DNA of 33,104 nt, from NCBI GenBank assembly GCA_905235045.1, contig CAJOJO010000005.1, positions 1 through 33,104 of the forward strand, in the 5' to 3' direction. A program made the translations under genes and the position numbers. This DNA comes from an uncultured Bacilli bacterium (GTDB lineage: Bacteria; Bacillota_I; Bacilli_A; RF39; UBA660). Below are positions 3,452 to 32,617 of the stretch, piece by piece. The notes below the pieces were generated by a model. It did no database searches, was not told the origin of the DNA, and saw only the letters and a program-made list of their open reading frames with translations. Positions within the stretch are counted from its first letter, which is position 1; each line of letters opens with the position of its first letter.

Positions 3452-5857
3452 ATGAATCATAAAGAGATAGAAAAAAAATGGCAAGAATATTGGGATAAAA
3501 ATAAGACTTTTGAAGCAAAAAATGGTGAAAATAAAAAAACATTTTATGATTTGGTAGAATTTCCATATCCATCTGGAGCTGGTCTTCATGTTGGCCATGT
3601 TAGAGGTTATACAGCCCAAGATGTAATTGCTCGTATTAAAAGAATGCAAGGGTATAATGTGCTATATCCAATGGGATGGGATGCCTTTGGAGCACCAGCT
3701 GAACAATACGCAATAAAAAATCATATTCATCCTAAAGAAGCTGTTAAAGAAAATATTAAAACATTTAAAGGCCAAATGAAATCACTAGGATTCTCATTTG
3801 ATTGGTCAAGAGAATTTTCAACAACTGATCCAGAATATTATAAATGGACACAATGGCAATTCTTACAATTTTATAAACATGGTATGGCTTATAAAGATAC
3901 TATTCCGGTAAATTGGTGTCCAAACTGTAAAACAGTTCTTTCAAATGAAGATGCTGCTGGTGGTGTTTGTGAAAGATGTGGCGCTCAAGTAGAACAAAAA
4001 GAAAAATCACAATGGATGCTTAGAATGAGTGATTATGCCGAAGATTTACTTAATGGCCTTGAGGATACTAATTTTGCTGATCGAGTAAAATTAGGTCAAA
4101 TTAATTGGATTGGTAAATCTACAGGTGTAGAAGTTGATGTTGATATAGTTGGTGGTGGTAAATTTAGTATTTTTACTACTTGTATTGAAACAATCTACGG
4201 AATCACATTCTTTGTAATTGCACCAGATGGAAAATTAATCAAAGAATTAATGCCAAGAATTGAAAACAAAGAAGAAGTAGAAGCTTATATTAAAGAAACC
4301 GCACTAAAATCTAATATGGATAGAACTGAATTAAATAAAGGTAAAACAGGATGCGAAGTAAAAGGTATTAAAGCAATTAATCCGATTAATAATAAAGAAG
4401 TACCAATTTTTTTAGGTGACTTTGTTTTAGGTGATTATGGTACTGGAGCAGTTATGGCAGTACCAAGTCATGATGAACGTGACTTTGAATATGCTAAAGA
4501 ACACAATTTAGAAATGATTGAAGTAATTAGTGGCGGAGATACTAAAGACCATGCTTTTGAAAAACACGATTATTTAGGAAAAGGATGTAAATTAATTAAC
4601 TCAGAAGAATTTACTGGTTTGACAGTAGAAGAAGCTAAAGAAGCTATAACTGATAAACTAGAAAAAATGGGTATTGCTAGACGTGTAAATAACTATAAAA
4701 TGAGAGATTGGATTTTCTCAAGACAAAGATTCTGGGGTGAACCAATACCAATGGTTAATTGTCCTGAATGTGGTTGGGTTCCGGTACCAGAAAACGAATT
4801 ACCACTATTACTTCCTGATGTAGCAGAATATGAACCAACAGATACAGGTGAATCACCATTAGCAAAAATTGATTCATTCGTTAATTGTAAATGCCCTAAG
4901 TGTGGAAAAGATGCTAAAAGAGAAACTGATACAATGCCTAACTGGGCTGGTTCATCATGGTATTTCTTAAGATATATGGATCCACATAATAATCAAGAAT
5001 TTGCTTCAATGGAAGCAATGAAATACTGGAATAAAGTGGATTGGTATAATGGTGGTATGGAGCACACAGCTCGTCACTTATTATATGCTAGATTCTGGGT
5101 ACAATTCTTATATAATATTGGTTTAGTACCTAATAAAGAAATGATTTGGACTCGTGTATCACATGGTATGATATTAGGCGCAAATAACGAAAAAATGTCT
5201 AAATCAAAAGGTAATGTTGTTAATCCTGATGATATAGTAAATGAATTTGGTGCTGATACATTAAGAGTTTACGAAATGTTTATTGGTGATTATCGTGAAG
5301 ATGCTCCATGGAATACTGATTCTTTAAAAGGTTGCGATCGTTTCTTAAAAAGAATAGAAAGAATTGGTGAAAAATTAAACGATAAACAAGGATATACAGA
5401 CTCTATCTTAGTAAATAAAACAATTAAAAAAGTAACGGAAGATAACTTATCAATGAAATATAATACGGCAATATCAGCTTTAATGATTATGTTAAATGAA
5501 TATGAAAAATATGATTCCATTACTAAAGATGATTATCGTATATTATTAACTTTACTTAATCCAACTGCCCCTCATATTACGGAAGAACTAAATGAAATTT
5601 ATCATTTAGGAAAACCAATATGTGAAAGTAGTTGGCCAATAGTTGATGAATCTAAACTAGTTGATGATACATTTACAATGATTGTTCAAGTTAATGGTAA
5701 AGTAAGAGGTAAAATTGAAGTTAGTAGTAATGCTAGTAAAGAAGAAATGGAACATCTTGCTAGGGAAATAGAAAATGTAAAAGTATTTACAGAAGGAAAA
5801 GAAATAGTTAAAATAATAACTGTTCCTAAAAAACTAGTTAATATAGTTGTTAAATAA
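3452..5857 (+). CDS. leuS: Leucyl-tRNA synthetase
   Basis: Class I aminoacyl-tRNA synthetase charging tRNA-Leu in the cytoplasm. The 801-residue protein has the HIGH motif as HVGH (residues 46-49, in YPSGAGLHVGHVRGYTAQD), a Cys cluster (CPNC...CERC), the CP1 editing domain ending in GDYGTGAVMAVPSHDERDFEYA, the catalytic core (DTMPNWAGSSWYFLRY), KMSKS at 581-585, the anticodon-binding domain and the C-terminal VNGKVRGKIEV domain. The threonine-rich editing motif, usually TTRPDT, reads FTTCIET (241-247); I recall this variant from other Bacillota LeuRS sequences, so it is probably a subfamily trait and not damage. GGAGTG precedes the ATG. Transcription is under the leucine T-box, behind a small membrane protein gene, and is closed by a strong terminator. 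Confidence 0.98.
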   Translation: MNHKEIEKKWQEYWDKNKTFEAKNGENKKTFYDLVEFPYPSGAGLHVGHVRGYTAQDVIARIKRMQGYNVLYPMGWDAFGAPAEQYAIKNHIHPKEAVKENIKTFKGQMKSLGFSFDWSREFSTTDPEYYKWTQWQFLQFYKHGMAYKDTIPVNWCPNCKTVLSNEDAAGGVCERCGAQVEQKEKSQWMLRMSDYAEDLLNGLEDTNFADRVKLGQINWIGKSTGVEVDVDIVGGGKFSIFTTCIETIYGITFFVIAPDGKLIKELMPRIENKEEVEAYIKETALKSNMDRTELNKGKTGCEVKGIKAINPINNKEVPIFLGDFVLGDYGTGAVMAVPSHDERDFEYAKEHNLEMIEVISGGDTKDHAFEKHDYLGKGCKLINSEEFTGLTVEEAKEAITDKLEKMGIARRVNNYKMRDWIFSRQRFWGEPIPMVNCPECGWVPVPENELPLLLPDVAEYEPTDTGESPLAKIDSFVNCKCPKCGKDAKRETDTMPNWAGSSWYFLRYMDPHNNQEFASMEAMKYWNKVDWYNGGMEHTARHLLYARFWVQFLYNIGLVPNKEMIWTRVSHGMILGANNEKMSKSKGNVVNPDDIVNEFGADTLRVYEMFIGDYREDAPWNTDSLKGCDRFLKRIERIGEKLNDKQGYTDSILVNKTIKKVTEDNLSMKYNTAISALMIMLNEYEKYDSITKDDYRILLTLLNPTAPHITEELNEIYHLGKPICESSWPIVDESKLVDDTFTMIVQVNGKVRGKIEVSSNASKEEMEHLAREIENVKVFTEGKEIVKIITVPKKLVNIVVK

Positions 5858-5885
5858 AAGATTTCTTAAAAGAAATCTTTTATTA
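5856..5885 (+). terminator. leuS terminator
   Basis: AAAAGATTTC / GAAATCTTTT, a 10-bp perfect stem around TTAA-type loop bases, starts at the leuS stop codon and runs into T-rich sequence. Confidence 0.85.
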
Positions 5886-15115: not shown

Positions 15116-15993
15116 CAAAATATTATGGTAATTTTAAAGCTGTCGATAATTTGTCCTTTAGTGTTAAAGAAGGCGAAATATTTGGTTTATTAGGTGTTAA
15201 TGGAGCTGGTAAAACAACAACATTTAGAATGATTATTGGTTTATTAGACGTAACTGAAGGAACTATTTTATTAGATGGCAAACCAATTGATTATAGCGTA
15301 ACTGATAAAATTGGTTTTTTAACTGAAGAAAGAAGCTTACTAATTAAAATGACAGTTAGAGAACAAGCCATTTACTATGGAACCCTAAAAGGAATGAAAG
15401 AGAAAAAAATAATCGAAAGATTAGAAGAATTATTAGCTAAATTTGGTATATCAGAATATATTGATAAAAAAATAAAAGAATTATCAAAAGGTAACCAACA
15501 AAAAATTCAATTTATAATGGCTATTATAAACGAACCAAGATTACTTATATTAGATGAACCATTTAGTGGTTTAGATCCATTTAACGTTGAATTATTCAAA
15601 AACGAAATCGTTGAATTATCAAAAAAAGGTTCAATTATAATTTTTTCATCACATCGTATGGAACATGTTGAATTATTTTGTAAAAAACTAGTTATCATTT
15701 TAAAAGGTAAAACAGTTTTAGAAGGATATTTAAAAGATATAAAAGAAAAATATCAAAAGAAAAACATTATGATTAAAGCTGATATTAAAAAAGATGAACT
15801 ATTAAAGATTGATGGAGTAGAAGAAGTAACCGAAAAAGCTGATGAATTAGAAGTTAAAATATCTTCTAGTAAAATAGTTGATAACGTATTTAAAGCAGTA
15901 TCAAAAAAGAAAAATGTTACTAAATTTGTTGTTGAAGAACCATCATTAAACGAAATCTTTGTTTCAAAGGTAGGTGAAGCATATGAAAAGTAA
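15094..15993 (+). CDS. ABC transporter ATP-binding protein, NatA/YhaQ-like
   Basis: The 299-residue ATPase has Walker A GVNGAGKTT (34-42), Q-loop region, the signature as LSKGNQQ (130-136), Walker B LLILDEPFSGLD and the switch His in SSHRMEHVE. The GFLTEERSL stretch and the extra ~80-residue C-terminal domain (DUF4162-like) resemble the NatA/YhaQ class of exporter ATPases. GGGAGG precedes the ATG. It overlaps the preceding gene by 22 bases and the permease gene by 11 bases, so the two ABC subunits are made together. The exported substrate (Na+, a drug or a peptide) cannot be told. Confidence 0.92.
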   Translation: MLEVKNVTKYYGNFKAVDNLSFSVKEGEIFGLLGVNGAGKTTTFRMIIGLLDVTEGTILLDGKPIDYSVTDKIGFLTEERSLLIKMTVREQAIYYGTLKGMKEKKIIERLEELLAKFGISEYIDKKIKELSKGNQQKIQFIMAIINEPRLLILDEPFSGLDPFNVELFKNEIVELSKKGSIIIFSSHRMEHVELFCKKLVIILKGKTVLEGYLKDIKEKYQKKNIMIKADIKKDELLKIDGVEEVTEKADELEVKISSSKIVDNVFKAVSKKKNVTKFVVEEPSLNEIFVSKVGEAYEK

Positions 15994-21564: not shown

Positions 21565-22431
21565 ATGCAAAGGGATTTATTAAAAATGGATGTAAAAGGG
21601 AATAAAATAGGAGTTATTAAAATAAATGAAAAGGAATATATATCACTCACTGATTTAGCTAGGTATGCAAATGAAGAAGATCCAAAAGTACCAGTTTATT
21701 CGTGGATGCGAAATAAAAATATTATTCTATATTTAGGTTTATGGGAAAGCATTTATAATAAAGATTTTAAAGGTCACGAATTCGAGACCTTTAAAAATGA
21801 AGCTGGTTCTAATAACTTTTATATGTCACCACAAAAATGGATAAATGCAACTAATGCTATTGGTATAGTATCAAAACGCGGTAGATATAGTAGTGGAACA
21901 TATGCACATTCTGATATAGCTTTTGAATTTGCTAGTTGGTTAAGTCCTGAATTTAAATTATATTTAATCCAAGAATTTCAAAGATTAAAGAAAAGGGAAG
22001 CTATTGAATTAAAACAAGATTGGCAAGCTAATAGAATACTATCTAAAGCAAATTATTTGCTTCATACAGATGCAATTAAAAACTATATAGTTCCTAATTT
22101 AACTGAAAAACAAAAAAGACATGTATATGCTGATGAAGCAGATATATTAAATGTTGCTTTATTTGGTATGACAGCTAAAGAATGGAAAAAGAGTAATCCT
22201 AAACTAAAAGGTAATATAAGAGATAATACTGATTTATTACATTTAATTATCCTAAATAATTTAGAAAATTCTAATACTGAATTTATTAAATTGGGATTAA
22301 GTCAAAAAGAAAGATTAGTTAGATTAAATAAGTCCGCTATAAATCAAATGGAATTATTAAAAAAAGTAAAAGGAATTAAAGAACTAGAAAATTTACAAAA
22401 ACATGTAAATAATAATTTATTAAATCTTTAA
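21565..22431 (+). CDS. KilA-N domain protein
   Basis: The 288-residue protein has an N-terminal KilA-N DNA-binding domain: IKINEKEYISLTDLARYAN, VYSWMRNKNIILYLGLWE, FYMSPQKWINATNAIGI, RGRYSSGTYAHSDIAFEFASWLSPEFKLYLIQEFQRLK (to about residue 145). A helical C-terminal region follows (DWQANRILSKANYLLHTDAIKNYI, EADILNVALFGMTAKEWKK). Such proteins derive from phage and large-virus anti-repressors; solitary chromosomal copies are of unknown function. AAAGGAG lies before the ATG. It stands alone after a terminator, with no phage genes nearby, and no terminator separates it from the SDR gene. The reading frame contains a near-perfect 32-bp palindrome (21765-21796) just before the conserved EAGSNNF segment. 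Confidence 0.9.
   Translation: MQRDLLKMDVKGNKIGVIKINEKEYISLTDLARYANEEDPKVPVYSWMRNKNIILYLGLWESIYNKDFKGHEFETFKNEAGSNNFYMSPQKWINATNAIGIVSKRGRYSSGTYAHSDIAFEFASWLSPEFKLYLIQEFQRLKKREAIELKQDWQANRILSKANYLLHTDAIKNYIVPNLTEKQKRHVYADEADILNVALFGMTAKEWKKSNPKLKGNIRDNTDLLHLIILNNLENSNTEFIKLGLSQKERLVRLNKSAINQMELLKKVKGIKELENLQKHVNNNLLNL
21765..21796 (+). repeat. 32-bp near-perfect palindrome inside the KilA-N gene
   Basis: Arms TTTTAAAGGTC (21765-21775) and GACCTTTAAAA (21786-21796) are exact complements, with the palindromic centre CGAATTCG (21777-21784). Fifteen of sixteen symmetric pairs match; the only mismatch is A21776/A21785. It encodes FKGHEFETFK in frame. Confidence 0.9.
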
Positions 22432-26568: not shown

Positions 26569-26631
26569 TTTTTTAAATTTTTAGAAGGATTTTTAAAATT
26601 TTTATCGAATGATATTTATAGAGGTGATAAT

Positions 26632-27450
26632 GTGAATAAATTAAAAGTAAATGAAAGTGTGTTTGAAAGTATCAAACATACTGATGAATATGGTAATGAG
26701 TATTGGATGGCAAGAGAATTAGGAAAAATACTTGAATATAGTGAATATAGAAAATTTTTGCCAGTTATAAATAAGGCAATTATCACATGTAAGACAAGTA
26801 ATCAAAATATAGATAATCATTTCGTCCAAGTGAGCGTAATGATAAAAATTGCAAAGGGTGCGCAAAGAAAAGTGCTTGATTATAAACTATCTCGTTACGC
26901 ATGCTATTTAATTGCCCAAAATGGTGATTCAAGAAAAAAAGTAATAGCTTTAGCCCAAACCTATTTTGCTATTCAAACAAGAAAACAAGAACTAATGGAA
27001 GAAGAATATAAACTACTATCTGAAGATGAAAAAAGACTAAAGATTAGAAAAGAAGTAAAAGAAAATAATTTTGATTTAAATAGAACTGCTATTAAAAGTG
27101 GTGTTAAAGATTTAGCTAGATTCCATAATGCTGGATATAAAGGTTTATATAATGGTGAGACAGCTAATGATATAGCTAAAAGAAAAGGATTAAGATATAG
27201 AGAAGATATTCTAGATAATATGGGGAGTGAAGAGTTAGGCGCAAATCTATTTAGGATAACGCAAACAGATGCTAAATTAAAAAGAGAAAATGTCGATAAT
27301 GAATATAAAGCTGATAGTATTCATTTTGAAGTTGGAAAAAACGTTAGAGAAGCAATAATTAAGAATAAAAGTATTACACCAGAAAACTTACCTACACCAA
27401 TAAGTAGTTTAAAAGAACTTGATAATAAAAAATCATCAATGAAAATTTGA
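26632..27450 (+). CDS. dinD: DinD-like DNA-damage-inducible protein
   Basis: The ORF track starts at a TTG in the rplT terminator; the real start is the GTG at 26632, directly after GAGGTGATAAT, giving 272 residues, close to E. coli DinD (about 274). Similarity to DinD runs along the whole chain: FESIKHTDEYGNEYWMARELGKILEYSEYRKFLPVI, NHFVQVSVMIKIAKGAQR, DYKLSRYACYLIAQNGD, ALAQTYFAIQTRKQEL, DEKRLKIRKEVKENN, FHNAGYKGLYNG, ILDNMGSEELGANLFRITQTDAKL, HFEVGKNVREAI and TPENLPTPISSLKEL. E. coli DinD is SOS-induced and inhibits RecA filaments. The N-terminal half resembles BRO/antirepressor DNA-binding domains. No LexA-type box (GAACnnnnGTTC) is visible upstream. Confidence 0.93.
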   Translation: MNKLKVNESVFESIKHTDEYGNEYWMARELGKILEYSEYRKFLPVINKAIITCKTSNQNIDNHFVQVSVMIKIAKGAQRKVLDYKLSRYACYLIAQNGDSRKKVIALAQTYFAIQTRKQELMEEEYKLLSEDEKRLKIRKEVKENNFDLNRTAIKSGVKDLARFHNAGYKGLYNGETANDIAKRKGLRYREDILDNMGSEELGANLFRITQTDAKLKRENVDNEYKADSIHFEVGKNVREAIIKNKSITPENLPTPISSLKELDNKKSSMKI

Positions 27451-31699: not shown

Positions 31700-32617
31700 A
31701 TGAATGATTTAGCATTAAAAGAAGATATTAAAAGTATGATTTATGAGGTGCGCGGTAAACAAGTAATGTTAGATAGTGATTTAGCTAGGTTATATGAATG
31801 CAAGAATGGAACTAAATCTATAAACTTAGCTGTGACTAGAAATATTGAAAGATTTCCAGAAGAATTTTATTTTCAATTAACTGATGAAGAGTACAATTCT
31901 TTGAGGTTTCAGATTGAAACCTCAAATATAACTAATTATTCAAGGTTTCAGATTGAAACCTTAAAAAGTAACAGTGGCGGTAGAAGATATAATCCATATG
32001 TATTTACAGAACAGGGTGTAGCTATGCTATCAAGTGTATTACATACTGAAAAAGCAGTTAGCGTAAGCATCAATATAATGAATGCTTTTGTATCAATGAG
32101 AAAATATATTTCGTCTAATTTAATTGACCAAAAAAATATAAATAATTTAGTTTTAGAAGACCATTCTCATATTTTAAAAATGGATGATGATATAAAATTA
32201 CTACAAGAATGTTTTGATAAATTTGAGGAAAAAGAAATACTACTAGATAAAACATATGATGCCTATTCTATATTACTAGATATATTTAAAAGTACTAAAA
32301 AAGAATTAATAATTATTGATAGATATACTGATAAGAGTCTATTAGATATTATAAAAGAATTAAGATGTAAAGTTATTCTAATAACAAGTAATAAAACTAA
32401 ATTAGATATCAAAAAATATAATGAAAGTTATAATAATTTAAAAGTAATATATAATGATACTTATCATGATAGATATTTTATAATTGATAGAGATAAAATA
32501 TATCACTCAGGTAATTCAATAAATCATATAGGATATAGAAAATCAAATATAAATTTATTAGAAGATGAAAAAGTAAAAGATTTAATCTTAAAAGATATAG
32601 AAAAGATTATTAAATAA
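31700..32617 (+). CDS. ORF6N (KilA-N-like) protein with HKD-like C-terminal domain
   Basis: The 305-residue protein has an N-terminal ORF6N domain: [51 protein letters not shown], then [42 protein letters not shown], the signature of phage-derived antirepressor-type regulators. After a coiled linker comes a domain with [13 protein letters not shown] and [17 protein letters not shown], resembling a single phospholipase-D-like HxKx4D motif with Arg for Lys. Between the two ORF6N halves the unit RFQIET occurs twice, each encoded by a perfect DNA palindrome. AAGGAGG precedes the ATG. The gene sits between parE and parC with its own terminator. Function unknown. Confidence 0.9.
31903..31962 (+). 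repeat. Two tandem 21-bp palindromes inside the ORF6N gene
   Basis: Copy 1 (31903-31923) is GAGGTTTCA-gat-TGAAACCTC and copy 2 (31942-31962) is AAGGTTTCA-gat-TGAAACCTT. Each is a perfect 9-bp inverted repeat, 39 bases apart, in the same frame, both encoding RFQIET. The outermost pair differs (G:C against A:T) in both arms at once, so pairing is kept. Confidence 0.92.

Follow-up and report, generated by a model that had tools for sequence, protein, structure and literature searches.

A palindrome inside KilA-N genes coevolves with a helix of the encoded protein, suggesting a built-in binding site

Which described systems keep a DNA element within the gene whose own protein responds to it? Autogenous operators inside coding sequences are one such class, in which a DNA-binding protein has a site in its own gene, and HK022 Roi is reportedly a precedent. 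Palindromes within reading frames are also known as Rickettsia palindromic elements, which are longer, mobile insertions found in some orthologues and missing from others. BstA, from the Salmonella prophage BTP1 and its relatives, contains a region (residues 32–147) described as KilA-N(-like), and its gene sits downstream of cI (PMC8585504). The protein is turned off by aba, its cognate element, which lies in the bstA gene and acts as DNA; aba covers 63 bp over the start codon and bears direct CCCGCC repeats at either end instead of forming a palindrome, and each BstA variant has its own cognate element (PMC8585504).

The window analyzed here, a stretch of 33,104 nucleotides from an uncultured Bacilli bacterium (GCA_905235045.1, contig CAJOJO010000005.1), contains a KilA-N domain gene of 288 aa on the + strand (21565–22431; Pfam PF04383, E 1.5e-17). 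The original prediction of a 32-bp palindrome with 15 of 16 pairs in the frame of this gene was confirmed at 21765–21796 (no strand assigned; TTTTAAAGGTCACGAATTCGAGACCTTTAAAA), and its claim that such a structure is very unlikely by chance held as well, as 150 first-order Markov simulations of the window yielded zero 15/16 palindromes. The dyad center lies between 21780 and 21781, and the sole mismatch is A21776/A21785. With positions k counted from the center outward, the conserved element is 30 bp (21766–21795) plus an outer T/A pair without covariation, and pairs beyond k15 have no Watson–Crick excess. The left half-site TTTAAAGGTCACGAA (21766–21780, + strand), whose variable arm is k3–k8, and the right half-site TTTAAAGGTCTCGAA (21781–21795, – strand) differ from one another only at k4. 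The only other 15/16 palindrome of the window, at 5853–5884, is terminator-like and lies at the end of leuS.

How does this locus compare with the known systems? Like BstA, the protein has a KilA-N(-like) N-terminal domain (PF04383 match to residues 13–143), and its gene holds a short DNA element, here a palindrome conserved as DNA; a cognate pairing of protein and element is likewise suggested here by coevolution. The position downstream of a phage repressor recurs in the satellite phage Javan279, where a KilA-N-family gene directly follows the repressor. The element differs from aba, however, in being an inverted repeat of 30–32 bp that lacks CCCGCC and lies 200 bp into the gene, in codons 67–78, and abortive infection is a feature of BstA, whereas for the KilA-N family immunity is proposed by analogy. 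The autogenous operators share with this locus a site that would be recognized by the protein of the same gene, as coevolution indicates here. They differ in that a whole family, spread across phyla, has the KilA-N site within the coding sequence, that its arms diversify with the proposed recognition helix, and that copies occur in viruses without the gene. With the Rickettsia palindromic elements it has in common a palindrome inside a reading frame, but the one here is short and is a constant feature of the entire subfamily.

A PADLOC scan of the KilA-N protein at E ≤ 0.1 returned a candidate defense family, PDC-S22, as its sole match (E 4.9e-119). In an AlphaFold2 model (88 sequences, mean pLDDT 88), helix 28–35 is followed by helix 41–48 in a helix-turn-helix arrangement, with 41–48 as the second helix. 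Codons 41–49 (KVPVYSWMR; 21685–21711, + strand) encode the proposed recognition helix, identified by the coupling described below. The palindrome is in frame, and the codons under it (67–78; 21763–21798, + strand), which contain FKGHEFETFK, encode a loop (66–69) and the start of a short helix (70–79) in the model. The top fold match was the DNA-binding dimer DdrC of Deinococcus (E 3e-3), a weak match that would be only supportive, and an APSES-type fungal complex, PCG2–DNA (4ux5), appeared further down the list.

How is the palindrome kept among relatives? Homologues came from related genomes, GTDB contigs, virus contigs and the phylum; many originate from metagenome assemblies, and the source genome alone gave eight matches, some of them fragments. 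Nearly all subfamily members, in Bacilli, Bacteroidota, Proteobacteria and candidate phyla, have the palindrome at the same codons, with the shared frame TTTAA-N7-GAATTC-N7-TTAAA; a betaproteobacterial MAG (L118, 62% GC by its name) has TTTAAACCCCTCGAATTCGAGGGGTTTAAA. KilA-N proteins without the palindrome (L194 and L195) are distant and are missing the peptide segment. Because the palindrome is at the same codons in nearly all members and there is no presence/absence polymorphism, an in-frame insertion of the Rickettsia kind, one of four readings offered by the original prediction, finds no support. In KilA-N genes of another subtype, a palindrome centered on GAATTC is found at a similar place in another reading frame (L316, 1744–1773; L295, 332–361).

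The arms vary among members yet remain complementary, and the encoded residues vary with them (FNYGEFAIIK, FNLVEFDQIK, FNSAEFRRIK and FKPLEFEGFK). Across 155 distinct sequences, positions k3 to k9 form Watson–Crick pairs in 143, 135, 131, 117, 147, 132 and 136 cases, compared with 106, 92, 59, 48, 49, 51 and 72 expected from column composition. There are 91 arm combinations in this set, 26 of which are perfect. Among 83 disjoint pairs of relatives, a design that takes out most shared ancestry, compensated double changes numbered 100 and one-sided changes 88. The DNA-level alignment of relatives thus shows a palindrome kept by compensating changes, the reverse of the same residues recurring without a palindrome: the residues differ and the palindrome stays. 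A conserved peptide whose codon choice happened to create the palindrome would fit the coding nature of the segment and its conserved F, E-F and K residues. We nevertheless consider such an accident almost inconceivable, and it is refuted by the data: reverse-complement codon pairs change jointly and alter residues as they do so (YG..AI, LV..DQ, SA..RR, PL..EG), the ORF6N palindrome described below occurs in different frames, and sites are found outside genes.

Is the selected form DNA or RNA? An RNA stem is expected to favor G-U. Among the 144 departures from pairing at k3–k9 in the 155 sequences, 27 were G-U and 31 A-C; the 83 disjoint pairs gave 27 and 35, and ORF6N gave 9 and 20. Because G-U mismatches are no commoner than A-C, the form under selection is double-stranded DNA and not an RNA hairpin, and it is in double-stranded-DNA form that the palindrome is conserved. 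A hairpin in the KilA-N mRNA, conserved for RNA stability or regulation, could draw on the ability of the strand to fold with an AAUU loop and on the fact that covarying stems are usual for RNA. It is nonetheless highly improbable, since, besides the lack of G-U preference in both KilA-N and ORF6N, the bases couple to a protein helix, sites also lie in untranscribed or unrelated contexts, and Rfam gave no family and no match of weight.

What constrains the sequence of the arms? With overall similarity removed, the half-site couples to residues 41, 42, 45, 46 and 49, which have the spacing of one face of a helix. The two arms analyzed separately gave the same colinear map, with couplings of 0.72/0.74 for k3 and residue 49, 0.81/0.66 for k4 and 46, 0.35/0.32 for k5 and 42, 0.30/0.22 for k6 and 45, and 0.37/0.34 for k7 and 41, values to be read with the caveat that single control columns with few changes also give high partial correlations. 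In the 83 disjoint pairs, helix residues rank first of 238 for every base from k3 to k8 (p about 9e-6 to 3e-9). The chemistry of the coupling pairs Arg, Lys or His with G, Asn with A and Asp with C: Arg49 goes with C (G on the other strand) in 143 of 154 cases, Asn46 with T (A opposite) in 121 of 124, Asp46 with G (C opposite) in 15 of 18, Lys/His46 with C in 18 of 23, Lys/Arg41 with G in 44 of 45, and Ala41 with T in 30 of 30. Partners that match in the helix but are less than 60% identical overall have 87% of half-site bases in common, compared with 46% for the most similar partner overall. In the protein of the window residue 46 is Ser, and the sole A/A mismatch lies at k4, the base predicted for this residue; A/T differences between arms at k4 are confined to sequences that have Ser, Ala or Thr as residue 46, and none was seen in 124 Asn46 sequences. 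Only ~20 codons separate the helix from the palindrome, and local gene conversion could therefore contribute to the coupling, although by itself it would not select the spacing of one helical face.

These patterns lead us to conclude that the KilA-N protein very probably binds the palindrome inside its own gene, a reading that is strongly supported by computation on evolutionary evidence. Two copies of the protein, which we infer to act as a dimer, would each read one half-site through helix 41–49, with residue 49 reading k3, residue 46 reading k4, residues 42 and 45 reading k5–k6, and residue 41 reading k7–k8. As the site is part of the gene's own DNA, it would evolve together with the helix, and each paralogue would have its own address.

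Could the palindrome instead serve another factor? Candidates would be a recombinase, a host DNA-binding protein or a mobile palindromic element. Integrases and resolvases are often found next to these genes, and some contigs (in genomes G052 and G023) end at the palindrome, but a perfect 30-bp palindrome alone can break an assembly, coevolution with the KilA-N helix itself would go unexplained, and no homologue has an insertion or inversion at the palindrome, whose position and frame are fixed across phyla. We regard another factor as very improbable. Two contigs of G052 (C58, 10334–10363, and C79, 3–32) end at the same perfect palindrome, which splits the KilA-N gene; this reflects either an assembly break at the palindrome or recombination there. 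No positive evidence was found for a recombination site, another of the four original readings; the RNA hairpin among them is not supported, for want of a G-U preference, and the self-binding operator is supported, through coevolution, as a site that the protein's own recognition helix would read.

Where else do such sites occur on chromosomes? In 98 related genomes, nearly all motif sites lie within KilA-N genes or their remains, and own half-sites elsewhere within 1.5 kb were found at 2 of 72 loci, which is background given 1 of 72 for the control. On these counts a regulon and a promoter operator for the KilA-N protein were both rejected. The two exceptions have extra own half-sites at –489, –264 and –252 (L175) and at about +703 to +715 (L188). 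Since there is almost no other site in these genomes, and none near the gene above background, the main chromosomal target appears to be the gene itself. Such a distribution would also suit an intragenic operator that is autoregulatory only, the protein limiting its own transcription as a roadblock with no role in telling self from non-self: the site lies in the gene about 200 bp past the start codon and almost nowhere else, a built-in operator suits a gene that moves alone between loci, and the same coevolutionary evidence of binding serves. We consider autoregulation alone rather unlikely, as it accounts neither for the clusters of sites of two families nor for the sites that stand free, as hybrids or in tandem in viruses lacking the gene.

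Does the pattern extend beyond KilA-N? Two further genes of the window carry intragenic palindromes. The Bro-N/DinD-type gene (26626–27450, with the ORF listed from 26539, + strand; PADLOC PDC-S13) has a degenerate palindrome ATCATTTCGTCCAAGTGAGCGTAATGAT at 26816–26843 (no strand assigned), the fixed position of the family, and some relatives, among them L551 and L030, have the palindrome in perfect form. In 38 of 40 homologues it occupies this one position. Base k5 is coupled to residue 42, being G with Arg and C with Glu or Asp. E. coli K-12 DinD, annotated as DNA damage-inducible, belongs to the Bro-N family and not to KilA-N; its gene has TGACCATTTCGAGGAGATCCTCGATATGGTCA in codons 58–69, the palindrome position of the Bro-N family. 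The ORF6N gene (31700–32617, + strand; PADLOC PDC-S05), of the third family, has at 31900–31926 (likewise unstranded) a palindrome TTTGAGGTTTCAGATTGAAACCTCAAA with 12-bp arms in which every position is paired. The core of this palindrome (31904–31922) recurs as a second, direct copy, AGGTTTCAGATTGAAACCT, at 31943–31961 (unstranded); each copy encodes RFQIET, which suggests a duplication of the site within the gene. In 51 ORF6N homologues an odd palindrome is found at the corresponding position, with coupling of base 3 to residue 47 (r 0.98) and of base 4 to residue 43 (r 0.85). Examples are TTTGAGGTCACAAATTGTGACCTCAAA and GGTCGAAATTTTCGACC, of which the second is encoded in two frames. By their sequences, ORF6N and Bro-N/DinD are thus independent repeats of the KilA-N pattern with different palindromes. 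In the open-licence literature we found nothing that links KilA-N, ORF6N or DinD to such an own-gene site, and the reports found on dinD give no role for its palindrome.

What do viruses carry? In virus contigs, 28 of 50 frame-matching sites outside KilA-N genes were palindromic, whereas a control motif centered on GATATC gave 1 of 61 (Fisher p 1e-11), and 40 of 100 half-sites of the free-standing sites belong to the intragenic repertoire (control, 1 of 122). Several join two different known half-sites, and some are in tandem. The KilA-N gene was missing from 36 of 37 records checked (33 virus contigs and 4 named phages), many of which are fragments. In Proteus phage Pm34, a DinD-type and a KilA-N-type site lie within ~220 bp of mostly non-coding DNA, with one small hypothetical ORF annotated over the first of them, and in the Flyfo siphovirus Tbat2_3 sites of both types adjoin upstream of holin. 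A search for Bro-N genes in these two phages found none; the check for a KilA-N gene among phages with both site types covered Pm34. For the other two families, no free-standing Bro-N site with ACC flanks in virus contigs was palindromic, and two fully palindromic ORF6N-type sites, too small a number to weigh, lay outside recognized ORF6N genes. DinD-type sites are rare in coliphages; two Campylobacter phage records have 100% DinD-type matches, which may stem from E. coli contamination.

How might sites in genes and in viruses be connected? In a self-recognition scheme like that of aba in BstA, DNA with the cognate site would be treated as self and spared by a phage-defense activity, and phages would gain the same protection by carrying free copies of the site. 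Integrases, S24 repressors, R-M, CRISPR, AbiE and similar genes are neighbors of the gene family. The scarcity of other chromosomal sites, these neighbors, the free-standing and clustered sites in viruses, the position in Javan279 and the BstA element together favor, by analogy, self-recognition with viral counter-copies over plain autoregulation. A self-immunity element would then be the most likely function of the palindrome, one that we give about an equal chance of being right or wrong. Own-site binding and self-recognition together, weighted to binding, are likely to be the best explanation overall. That KilA-N, ORF6N and Bro-N/DinD share one design, in which an address palindrome in the coding sequence marks gene-bearing DNA as self and phages evade through free-standing, hybrid and clustered copies, is a more tentative proposal, to which we give slightly less than an even chance.

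All three families are candidate defense genes in PADLOC. If these readings are true, genes of three large and mostly uncharacterized families of phage-type DNA-binding proteins contain, in their coding sequences, the binding sites of the proteins they encode, and the target of each protein could be read from its gene, providing a protein–DNA recognition code for KilA-N helices and a code of immune recognition for which the sequence would suffice. Self-immunity like that of BstA would become testable broadly, including in E. coli K-12 through dinD, and the viral copies suggest a counter-defense in which phages collect short palindromes.

Two further observations concern DinD-type sites in phage records. 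Fusobacterium phage FNU_1P (L606, MZ503612.1) has a perfect 24-bp DinD-type palindrome at 35311–35334, just upstream of N6-methylase and HsdS genes, and no Bro-N gene. A third palindrome type, AACTATCCGGTAATTCCGGATGGTT, stands beside a DinD-type site in L371 (KY420199.1, 3924–3948) and L607 (OL617042.1, about 15905–15933); 201 phage records and about half of E. coli genomes have this third type, mainly within phage genes of the DUF551 type.
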